From: Candidatus Rokuibacteriota bacterium
Lineage (GTDB): Bacteria > Methylomirabilota > Methylomirabilia > Rokubacteriales > CSP1-6
DNA: 64,000 nt
Assembly (NCBI GenBank): GCA_003220435.1
Contig: QHSL01000066.1
Location: 62,001-126,000 of the forward strand
Direction: 5' to 3'
In this document: positions 35,208-37,629 of the stretch, in pieces
How positions within the stretch are numbered: the first letter of the stretch is position 1
Layout of the letters: each line of letters starts with the position of its first letter
The notes under the pieces: generated by a model
The model's database searches: none
Told to the model about the DNA's origin: nothing
The model's input: only the letters and a program-made list of their open reading frames with translations
Made by a program: the position numbers and the translations under genes

Positions 35208-35225
35208 GAGGCGTCGTAACGCCTC
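35208..35225 (-). terminator. short hairpin at the stop codon of the OsmC-like selenoprotein gene
   Basis: GAGGCGT and ACGCCTC form a perfect 7-bp stem around a 4-nt loop, overlapping the TGA stop at 35224-35226. No T-run follows, so it may be a weak terminator, an mRNA-end protector or chance. Confidence 0.3.
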
Positions 35226-35694
35226 ACACCTCTTCGAACTCGGCGCTGTACTCGACGTTGATCCCACGGCGCACGCTCTGGCTGGCCGGGCAGCCCTTCT
35301 CGTGCACGCCGAGCGCGCGCTCGGCCTCGGCCCGCTTGCCCTTGGGGATCTTGCACGTGTAGCGGACGCGGATCGTGGTGATCAGCGCCACGCCGTCGAC
35401 GTTCTCGATGATGCCCTCGACGTGGGCGACCAGATTGTCCGGAGCGCTCTTGATTCCGCGCGCATCCAGCGCGCTTCCCATATTCCCGGTGAGTCAGCCG
35501 GCGACGGCCATCACGAGATGGTCCAGCGTCGCGGGCCGCTCGACCTCCGGCTCCGTCTTGTAGAACTTCTTGATGCCCCCGTGGATGCCGTAGGGAACGG
35601 GGGTGTCGGGGAACGCGTCCAGGTACGCCGTCTTCATGCCGCGTCCCGGCTCCTTGACGACCCGCGCCTTCGTCACGTGGATGATCTCACCCAT
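35224..35694 (-). CDS. OsmC-like selenoprotein (Sec67 by in-frame TGA)
   Basis: Read through the TGA at 35496-35494, this gives a 156-residue OsmC-family protein. Before the TGA: MGEIIHVTKARVV, YGIHGGIKKFYKT, RPATLDHLVMAVAG; after it: LTGNMGSALDARGI, ENVDGVALITTIRVRY, GCPASQSVRR. The TGA falls exactly where the family has its peroxidatic Cys (AVAGC-LTG); the resolving Cys is kept in EKGCPAS. OsmC proteins reduce organic hydroperoxides. A GC-rich stem-loop lies 20-36 nt after the TGA. ATG 35694 has GAGGAGG 6 nt upstream. Sec-containing OsmC proteins are known from bacterial selenoproteome surveys; assignment here is from sequence only. Confidence 0.85.
35458..35474 (-). promoter_or_regulatory. 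predicted bacterial SECIS element of the OsmC-like gene at 35224-35694
   Basis: On the minus strand, GCGCGC-UGGAU-GCGCGC forms a 6-bp stem with a 5-nt loop. The loop starts 26 nt after the UGA and has G at its second and third positions, within the usual spacing and loop rules for SelB-binding elements in bacteria. Confidence 0.7.
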
Positions 35695-35720
35695 GGAACA
35701 CCTCCTCACTCGGGGCGCAT

Positions 35721-35728
35721 GATATACC
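35721..35728. promoter_or_regulatory. shared AT-rich core (GATATACC) between the divergent selenoprotein genes
   Basis: GATATACC in the 68-bp divergent gap reads as TATACC on the plus strand and TATATC on the minus strand, so it could hold -10 boxes for both directions. No -35 boxes are clear. Confidence 0.35.
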
Positions 35729-35762
35729 GAGGGCGACGCGAATTCCGCCCTTGGAGGTCCCA

Positions 35763-36425
35763 ATGACACTTCGTGAAAGGCTCGACACGATGCGAGAGGC
35801 GTCCAAGGCGCGCATCCCGCCGGAGGCGCGCGCCGTCATGGAGCGCAGCGTCGCAGATCTACGATCTTCCGGGATCATGACCCGGATCGCCGCCGTCGGC
35901 CAGAAGGCGCCCGACTTCGCGCTGCCCAACGCGGCCGGCCGCACCGTCAGCCTCGCCGAGCTGCGGGCCCGTGGACCCGTCGTGCTGTCGTTCTACCGCG
36001 GCCGCTGGTGACCGTACTGCAACGCAGAGCTGGAGGCTCTGCAACAGGCCCTGCCCGAGATCGCCGCGGCCGGCGGGGCGCTGGCCGTGATCTCGCCCCA
36101 GGTGGCCCGCACACCGCGTGAGACCGAGGAGCCGAAGCCCATGGAGTTCGCGCTGCTCCGCGACTTCGGCAACCGCGTGGCCGAGGCGTACGGCCTGGTC
36201 TTCACGCTGCCCGACGACCTGCGCGCGATCTATCTCAAGTTCGGCATCGACCTGGCGCGGGGCAACGGCGACGGCACCTGGCGGCTGCCGGTGCCGGCCC
36301 GCTTCGTGATCGACCGCGGGGGCGTGATCCGCGCCGTCGACGCCGACCCGGACTACACGCGGCGCCCGGAGCCGGCGCACACGGTCGAGATTTTGAAACG
36401 GCTCCGCGACGGAGGCGCGTCATGA
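35763..36425 (+). CDS. peroxiredoxin-like selenoprotein (Sec83 by in-frame TGA, U-P-Y-C)
   Basis: Read through TGA 36009-36011 this is a 220-residue AhpC/TSA-type protein. Before the TGA: an N-terminal helix, KAPDFALPNAAGRTVSLAEL and VVLSFYRGRW; after it: PYCNAELEALQQALPEI, LAVISPQ, EFALLRDFGNRVAEAYGL, FVIDRGGVIRAV. Relatives have FYRGxWCPYCNxEL, so the TGA replaces the catalytic Cys and the motif is U-x-x-C. It should reduce hydrogen peroxide or thiol-linked substrates. ATG 35763 has GGAGG 5 nt upstream. Its stop overlaps the next start as ATGA, so the two selenoproteins are coupled. Confidence 0.88.
36017..36047 (+). promoter_or_regulatory. predicted bacterial SECIS element of the peroxiredoxin-like gene
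   Basis: The upper stem GCAGAG/CUCUGC (36024-36029 with 36037-36042) closes a 7-nt loop CUGGAGG, and a lower CUG/CAG stem (36017-36019 with 36045-36047) lies beyond a small internal loop. The apical loop starts 19 nt after the UGA. The loop shares UGGA with the element of the first OsmC-like gene. Confidence 0.7.
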
Positions 36426-36928
36426 GCGCCGTGCCCGAAGGCCTCAACCCCCGGATCGAGAGCCGCGAGATCGTGTTCGACGCCAGCGTCGACCTGGTCA
36501 CGCCGTTTCTCAAGCTCGCGACCGTCAGCCGGGGCGGCGCCGGCCACATGACGTTCGCCTCCGACGAGGGGCCGAGCCTCGGCGGGCTCGGCTCGGCGCC
36601 CACGCCGCTCATGTACTTCAGCGCCGCGCTCGCGTTCTGACTGATGACCCAGGTGTCCCGGTACGGGCACATGCTGAAGGTCACGGTGAACGGGATGCGG
36701 ATGAAGGTGACGGCGCGCTACCGGGTCGACGGCTCGGTGCTCAACGACACGGTCCAGGGCCGGATGGTGGGCGCCGAGACCACGCTGGAGATCGACTCGC
36801 CGGATCCGCCCGAGCGCGTCGCCCGGGTCGTGCGCAACGCCGAGCGCGGCTGCTTCGTTCTGCAGGCGTTGCAGAACCCGGTGCCGGTGACGGGGCGCAC
36901 CCTGCTCAACGGCACGCCGCTCGAGTGA
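36422..36928 (+). CDS. OsmC-like selenoprotein (Sec73 by in-frame TGA), second type
   Basis: Read through TGA 36638-36640 this gives 168 residues of a different OsmC branch. Before the TGA: FDASVDLVTPFLKLATVSRGG, LGSAPTPLMYFSAALAF; after it: LMTQVSRYGHMLKVTVNGM, ARYRVDGSVLNDTVQG, RNAERGCFVLQAL. Relatives have AxAFC-LMTQ at this point, so the TGA again sits at the peroxidatic Cys, and the second Cys (ERGCFVLQ) is kept. ATG 36422 overlaps the peroxiredoxin stop (ATGA). It should be an organic hydroperoxide reductase. Without read-through both halves would be useless fragments. Confidence 0.87.
36653..36670 (+). promoter_or_regulatory. predicted bacterial SECIS element of the second OsmC-like gene
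   Basis: GUG-(U)-CCCG pairs with CGGG-CAC around a GUA loop; the U at 36656 is bulged. The loop starts 21 nt after the UGA. A bulged U in the 5' arm and a loop opening with GU are also features of the well-studied E. coli fdhF element. Confidence 0.7.
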
Positions 36929-36974: not shown

Positions 36975-37184
36975 ATGGAGACGGTGACGCTGTCCAGCAA
37001 GTATCGGCTCGTGGTGCCGCCCGGCGCGCGCGAGCGGCTGCGCCTCCGGCCGGGGATGCGGATCACCGTCCTCGACAAGGGGGGAGTGATCTTCCTGATC
37101 CCCGAACGGCCGCTGGCGACCTACCGAGGCATCGCCCGTGGGGTGAGCGCCAGGGGACTGCGCGAGAAGAAGGACCGCCTCTGA
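36975..37184 (+). CDS. AbrB/MazE-type (VapB-like) antitoxin
   Basis: A 69-residue swapped-hairpin DNA-binding protein: VTLSSKYRLVVPPGARERLRLRPGMRITVLDKGGVIFLIP is the full SpoVT/AbrB domain, followed by a short tail (RGIARGVSARGL) of the kind that covers a PIN toxin's active site. Such proteins repress their own promoter and block a VapC ribonuclease. Here the toxin gene that follows is a remnant, so the antitoxin is orphaned. Transcribed from the promoter just upstream. Confidence 0.8.
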   Translation: METVTLSSKYRLVVPPGARERLRLRPGMRITVLDKGGVIFLIPERPLATYRGIARGVSARGLREKKDRL

Positions 37185-37320: not shown

Positions 37321-37629
37321 ATGGCCCAACCGGCACTGCCACCGTGGATCCAGGCCCTGCAGCAGCGCGATCCGAAGTTCGTCGAGACCTACATGACCCA
37401 GCGCGAGCACGTCCTGCGCGACGGCGCCATTCCGGCCAAGTACAAGCACCTCATGACGATGATCGTGGACGCGCTCCAGTCCCACCCGGACGGCGTGACG
37501 AACATCGCCAACCGCGCGCGCGGTGCTGGCGCCTCGGAGGCGGAGATCCAGGAGGCCGTCGAAGTCGCGTACCTGTTCGGCGGCACGCCGGCGCTGGTGA
37601 CCGCGATGAACGCCTTCAAGAGCAGTTAG
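37321..37629 (+). CDS. carboxymuconolactone decarboxylase (AhpD-like fold) family protein without cysteines
   Basis: 102 residues of the all-helical CMD/AhpD family: FVETYMTQREHVLRDGAIPAKYKHLMTMIVDAL then GVTNIANRARGAGASEAEIQEAVEVAYLFGGTPAL. The AhpD active site CxxC is absent, and in fact the chain has no Cys at all, so it is not a peroxidase partner of that kind and is nearer to the CMD enzyme-like or structural members. GGAGAGG 4 nt before ATG 37321 and TATATA at 37302 precede it. Confidence 0.82.
   Translation: MAQPALPPWIQALQQRDPKFVETYMTQREHVLRDGAIPAKYKHLMTMIVDALQSHPDGVTNIANRARGAGASEAEIQEAVEVAYLFGGTPALVTAMNAFKSS

Follow-up and report, generated by a model that had tools for sequence, protein, structure and literature searches.

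Three neighbouring selenoprotein genes of the OsmC and peroxiredoxin folds in a soil Rokubacteria genome

The window analysed here, a stretch of 64,000 nucleotides from contig QHSL01000066.1, belongs to a metagenome-assembled genome (MAG) of 5.44 Mb in 147 contigs (95.5% complete, 3.5% contaminated), the nearest named relatives of which are Candidatus Rokuibacteriota soil MAGs, that is, bacteria of the Methylomirabilota type. Three adjacent genes of the window, designated OsmC1, Prx-like and OsmC2 (Table 1), each contain exactly one internal in-frame TGA, as the initial annotation had reported and as the read-through translations bear out, and the terminal stop of all three is also TGA. With the internal codon translated as selenocysteine (Sec, U), the motifs are AVAGULTG in OsmC1, RWUPYC in the Prx-like protein and ALAFULMTQ in OsmC2. 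OsmC1 lies on the strand opposite the other two genes and diverges from the Prx-like gene, while the start of OsmC2 overlaps the Prx-like stop (ATGA, 36422-36425); because OsmC1 is divergent, the three genes are not one operon. Located 3' of OsmC2 are a MazE-like antitoxin fragment that scores slightly under its cut-off (36975-37181) and a carboxymuconolactone decarboxylase-like gene lacking a CxxC (37321-37629).

Table 1. Coordinates of the genes, putative Sec codons and predicted hairpins (positions in the window)
Feature	Position	Strand	Description and basis
OsmC1, OsmC-fold selenoprotein gene	35224..35694	minus	156 residues, U67 (ULTG), C135 (HEKGCPASQ), stop TGA; read-through translation
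OsmC1 Sec (UGA) codon, residue 67	35494..35496	minus	Translation; TGA column kept in relatives
SECIS-like hairpin of OsmC1	35458..35474	minus	GCGCGC-UGGAU-GCGCGC, 19 nt 3' of UGA; folding
OsmC1/Prx-like intergenic region	35695..35762	none	68 bp, divergent
Prx-like selenoprotein gene (AhpC/TSA)	35763..36425	plus	220 residues, UPYC (U83, C86), stop TGA; read-through translation
Prx-like Sec (UGA) codon, residue 83	36009..36011	plus	Translation; TGA column kept in relatives
SECIS-like hairpin of Prx-like gene	36024..36042	plus	8-bp stem, loop beginning GG, 12 nt 3' of UGA
OsmC2, selenoprotein gene, family NF041052	36422..36928	plus	168 residues, U73 (ULMT), C144; read-through translation
OsmC2 Sec (UGA) codon, residue 73	36638..36640	plus	Translation; TGA column kept in relatives
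SECIS-like hairpin of OsmC2	36650..36676	plus	3' of UGA; folding, synonymous resampling

All four components of the Sec machinery for which a search had been proposed are present in the source genome: a tRNA-Sec (69.8 bits; anticodon tca according to ARAGORN), selA (569 bits) and selB (351 bits), both beside the tRNA-Sec gene on contig C138, and selD (341 bits; contig C100, L019:1501-2445). A single in-frame TGA close to the start of selD (AACAGUASK) makes this gene, too, a selenoprotein gene. Across the phylum, selA was detected in 84 of the 95 genomes. Among relatives of the three genes, reaching down to 37–45% identity, the TGA is confined to a single alignment column per family (30/30 sequences for OsmC1, 17/17 for Prx-like and 16/16 for OsmC2, the window's own sequence counted in each), so that the same codon recurs in related genomes, where the initial annotation had suggested looking for it. 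Such agreement goes far past what chance would produce. Relative to congeneric sequences, most differences fall in the third codon position, and this holds equally on both sides of the TGA; between OsmC1 and its relative L025, for instance, the counts at first, second and third positions are 1, 1 and 18 upstream and 2, 1 and 20 downstream. Substitutions 3' of the TGA are of the coding type and, with the Pfam matches given below, bear out the earlier claim that coding similarity continues on both sides of the codon. A codon-usage scan of the window, judged by eye, showed no other TGA read-throughs with family similarity on both sides. Since the Sec machinery is present, the TGA occupies the same column in relatives and substitution downstream of it is of the coding type, the three internal TGAs almost certainly specify selenocysteine, and the genes are selenoproteins of known fold families. 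The refuting conditions set out in the initial annotation do not overturn this reading.

Two other accounts of the internal TGAs deserve consideration. The sequence was assembled from a metagenome, and ordinary gene calling would split each gene in two, as might be expected if the three were pseudogenes or the TGAs sequencing or assembly errors; however, the same codon is TGA in independent assemblies, isolates included, and both the reading frame and protein-level constraint persist 3' of it. Given that the TGA column is kept across relatives, and that selA scores above cut-off in all 24 genomes tested among OsmC1 carriers, Bacillaceae isolates included, such an origin is extremely improbable; single-column conservation of the TGA excludes it for practical purposes. 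An organism-wide change of code, with TGA read as Trp or Cys instead of Sec, would likewise place in-frame TGAs in several genes, as is seen here. Against it, TGA is also the terminal stop of these three genes, the homologous ends in relatives, which keep the shared TGA internal, being TAA, TAG or TGA; a true tRNA-Sec accompanies SelA, SelB and SelD; and internal TGA is restricted to sites at which homologues have a redox cysteine or begin a CxxC. No non-redox genes with internal TGA at Trp positions were seen in the scan of the window. The probability of a code change is accordingly negligible, and the initial annotation was right to regard the code as not reassigned, as the terminal TGAs and the tRNA-Sec machinery indicate.

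Folding predicts a hairpin 3' of the UGA in all three genes, with short apical loops containing G. On average the hairpins are more stable than synonymous recodings that keep the peptide unchanged, with a mean z of -1.07 for OsmC1, -1.26 for Prx-like and -2.06 for OsmC2; the excess exceeds the synonymous null for OsmC2 and Prx-like and is weak for OsmC1, where it is weakest within the window's own genus (z of 0 to -0.8). Of the 17 Prx-like sequences, 5 show a double change at one hairpin pair, U-A replacing C-G; pairing holds in 98.5% of cells, versus 22.8–51.5% when the hairpin is slid. The covariation count for the OsmC2 hairpin was not above that of shuffles, and matching against Rfam SECIS families yielded no hits at this locus. 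Overall, the SECIS signal of these predicted hairpins is modest.

OsmC1 matches Pfam family PF02566 with 48.5 bits (gathering cut-off 27.5). In a profile match, U67 and C135 align on the two cysteines of Escherichia coli OsmC (1nye) and Thermus thermophilus OsmC (1ukk), with which OsmC1 shares the fold and the two-cysteine layout; U67 and C135 sit on the reactive and the resolving cysteines, respectively, of OsmC/Ohr proteins, from which OsmC1 differs by Sec at the first of these sites. A phmmer search with the single sequence retrieved no PDB relatives, although the profile search did. The predicted model of OsmC1 resembles OsmC/Ohr structures with TM-scores near 0.55, the pLDDT being near 50 around residues 31-50. 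With respect to catalogued families, OsmC1 scores 21 and 17 bits against the OsmC/Ohr models TIGR03562 and TIGR03561 (cut-offs 86 and 89), and reaches no cut-off in NCBIfam 20.0. Against NF041052 (OsmC_like_Se), the window's OsmC1 gives no match at E 0.01, and 9 of 12 OsmC1 members match weakly (best E 5.3e-6; cut-off 95 bits); OsmC1 differs from that family in its motif, ULTG/UMTG (UxxG), and in its second site, CPASQ. A UxxG OsmC is absent from the 119-family table of a review (PMC13188914), in which the sole OsmC entry is UxxT. OsmC1 is probably an uncatalogued Sec subfamily of the OsmC fold.

When GTDB representative genomes were scanned with the OsmC1 alignment, the best 80 of 318 candidates had TGA in the OsmC1 column without exception (80/80). 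These best 80 loci span about eight phyla and come from Rokubacteria/NC10/Methylomirabilota, Acidobacteria, Nitrospinota and Tectomicrobia, from one member each of the Anaerolineales and Armatimonadetes, from one KSB1 MAG, and from about a dozen Bacillaceae, many of which are isolates. The cultured Bacillaceae with both the OsmC1 TGA and selA are L170, L173, L175-L183, L187 and L188. In a separate case, L171, from a record titled Chryseobacterium sp. ISL-80, the OsmC1 sequence is nearest to the Bacillaceae copies; a wrong title or a mixed assembly is possible. No OsmC1 relatives were detected in plasmid records, and clustering of flanking frames for conserved OsmC1 neighbours in other phyla gave nothing usable, antisense frames dominating. 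Because the window's OsmC1 is closer to most Tectomicrobia and Nitrospinota copies (76–93% identity) than to most copies in Rokubacteria of other genera (~60%), the gene has probably moved laterally between Sec users and been acquired separately.

OsmC2 also matches PF02566 (58.3 bits, cut-off 27.5), and U73 and C144 align on cysteines of PDB 3cje, so that, as in OsmC1, the alignment with Cys-containing homologues proposed in the initial annotation places the Sec and the conserved cysteine on the OsmC cysteines. With 164.4 bits against NF041052 (cut-off 95) and the same UxxT motif, OsmC2 is a member of this known and catalogued Sec family, the Sargasso Sea family, and such OsmC-like UxxT selenoproteins were described, together with Prx-like UxxC proteins, in 2005 and 2008 (PMC1088965, PMC2398784). 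OsmC1 and OsmC2 are different families, of which OsmC2 is catalogued as a selenoprotein and OsmC1 is not, a distinction absent from the initial annotation.

The Prx-like protein belongs to the AhpC/TSA family (PF00578, 96.5 bits; gathering cut-off 26), reaches no NCBIfam cut-off, and shares family, motif and fold with the known Prx-like UxxC selenoproteins (Prx-like 1 of the GOS survey), differing from these by a 40-residue N-terminal helical extension and the motif FYRGxWUPYC. The counterpart of U83 is the leading Cys of WCPYC in the thioredoxin-family structure 3hdc and, in 2cx3, the S/T of the peroxiredoxin motif, where C86 takes the peroxidatic column. The alignments indicate that Sec takes the place of Thr in the Prx motif and forms a thioredoxin-type UxxC. 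The initial annotation had placed the TGA on the catalytic cysteine in all three genes, which is correct for OsmC1 and OsmC2; for the Prx-like protein, with U83 in the Thr/Ser column, C86 peroxidatic and Pro in the Arg column, the description holds only in the thioredoxin sense. As the Prx-like Sec makes a UxxC and not a peroxidatic site, the further proposal that the locus covers organic and inorganic peroxides does not follow.

The reading implied by that proposal, a genuine Prx-like peroxidase that attacks through its Sec, can draw on the predicted model, the fold of which is closest to peroxiredoxins and the best PDB matches of which are Bcp/Prx proteins, and on the chemistry of a selenol, which might attack peroxide directly from the leading position of UxxC. 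The alignment columns speak against it, U83 falling in the Thr column of PxxxTxxC, C86 in the peroxidatic one and Pro in that of Arg: of the motif and catalytic Arg of peroxiredoxins proper (PxxxTxxC/U), only the peroxidatic-column Cys, C86, is present. Peroxiredoxin paralogues in the same genome read TPxC or TPxU and have Arg before the last strand, where the window protein has UPYC and Pro. We therefore consider a peroxidase unlikely. Because a peroxiredoxin fold is combined with a thioredoxin-type UxxC and a Pro in the Arg column, the protein is fairly likely to be a thiol/selenol-disulfide reductase.

A related question is whether the three genes act together or stand side by side by coincidence in a genome in which all OsmC and many AhpC/TSA proteins use Sec. 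The source genome is Sec-rich: all three of its OsmC matches and 11 of its 25 AhpC/TSA (PF00578) matches carry one TGA, which makes the clustering less special than it looks. The TGA of these AhpC/TSA paralogues (L210-L229) occupies the peroxidatic position (TxxU), opens a UxxC motif or falls in a UGC motif. In the third OsmC gene of the genome (L209:1501-1782, G000:C109:30378-30659), the first site is still Cys (SSCGVTL) and the TGA lies at the second (RGRUPLYRTV), apparently with Sec in place of the resolving cysteine. According to a review (PMC13188914), Deng et al. 2026 report 63 predicted selenoproteins in a Methylomirabilota MAG, which would be a Sec-rich genome of the same phylum-level group. 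Coincidence is also favoured by the restriction of the complete cluster to part of one genus, the genes being mostly apart elsewhere, and by the probable separate acquisition of OsmC1. In the source genome (G000) and G003 the three genes are together with an OsmC1/Prx-like gap of 68-69 bp; in G001 and G007 they are together with a TetR-type regulator gene (L109:906-1592, L111:4291-5005), missing from the window's gap, between OsmC1 and Prx-like, OsmC2 of G001 running off the contig. The TetR-type gene suggests inducible control in these two genomes. G004 has all three genes, with Prx-like joined in frame to the end of OsmC2 (L113:4244-4810), through an internal deletion or a misassembly. On the other side, Prx-like adjoins OsmC2 in 7 of 9 genomes of the genus (G004 as the fusion; G002 and G006 also with this pair), the two are about 1 kb apart in G015, of another genus, and an OsmC1 paralogue is again beside a Prx-like gene in G025. 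Coincidence thus appears a serious possibility, though somewhat the less probable one. Of the dedicated locus initially proposed, the adjacency of the genes stands, and the term itself is overstated, given the confinement to part of one genus, the Sec-rich genome and earlier reports of operons that combine several selenoprotein genes (PMC13188914). Like SAO, Tso, grdAB, frhA-frhD-hdrA and the Prx/SelW and Prx-like/AhpD neighbours, the three are neighbouring selenoprotein genes of related redox function; the set of OsmC1, Prx-like and OsmC2 differs from these in being divergent rather than one operon, and is not among the multi-selenoprotein arrangements named in the accessible literature.

Taken as a whole, the locus is very probably best explained as three selenoprotein genes, encoding an OsmC-type redox pair and a UxxC reductase-like Prx protein. 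The data establish the three genes, their conserved TGA, a Sec machinery in the genome and where U falls relative to homologous Cys; catalysis, electron flow and regulation are inferred, as follows. The hairpin just 3' of each internal UGA would recruit SelB and Sec-tRNA, leading to Sec insertion, whereas the terminal UGA of the same genes, without such a context, would act as a stop. OsmC/Ohr proteins reduce hydroperoxides via a reactive and a resolving cysteine, and Sec at the reactive site is expected to bring faster attack and easier recovery from over-oxidation. OsmC1 and OsmC2 would be thiol-peroxidase-fold proteins in which Sec replaces the first, reactive cysteine and the conserved second cysteine resolves: the selenol would attack peroxide or another oxidised substrate, forming a selenenyl-sulfide with C135 or C144 that would be reduced by a thiol carrier. 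Hydroperoxide chemistry of the OsmC type is somewhat more likely than not for both. The Prx-like protein would be a thiol/selenol-disulfide reductase and might supply electrons to OsmC2, its partner in the operon.

What looks new at this locus is the OsmC1 (UxxG) family; the OsmC2 family, Prx-like UxxC proteins and multi-selenoprotein operons are already known. It is an evenly balanced proposition that OsmC1 (UxxG ... CPASQ) is an obligate, uncatalogued selenoprotein family over Methylomirabilota, Acidobacteriota, Nitrospinota, Tectomicrobia, Chloroflexota, Armatimonadota, KSB1 and cultured Bacillaceae, without a close Cys form, and that, in one soil lineage, OsmC1, OsmC2 and the Prx-like UxxC protein jointly constitute a peroxide/thiol redox module based on selenium. 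If this is right, members of a widespread selenoprotein family are probably being annotated as fragments, also in culturable Bacillaceae, in which the prediction is directly testable. A family whose close members never exchange Sec for Cys would be a good test of why some bacteria keep selenium, and the locus would show the extent to which Sec has entered the redox enzymes of soil Rokubacteria.
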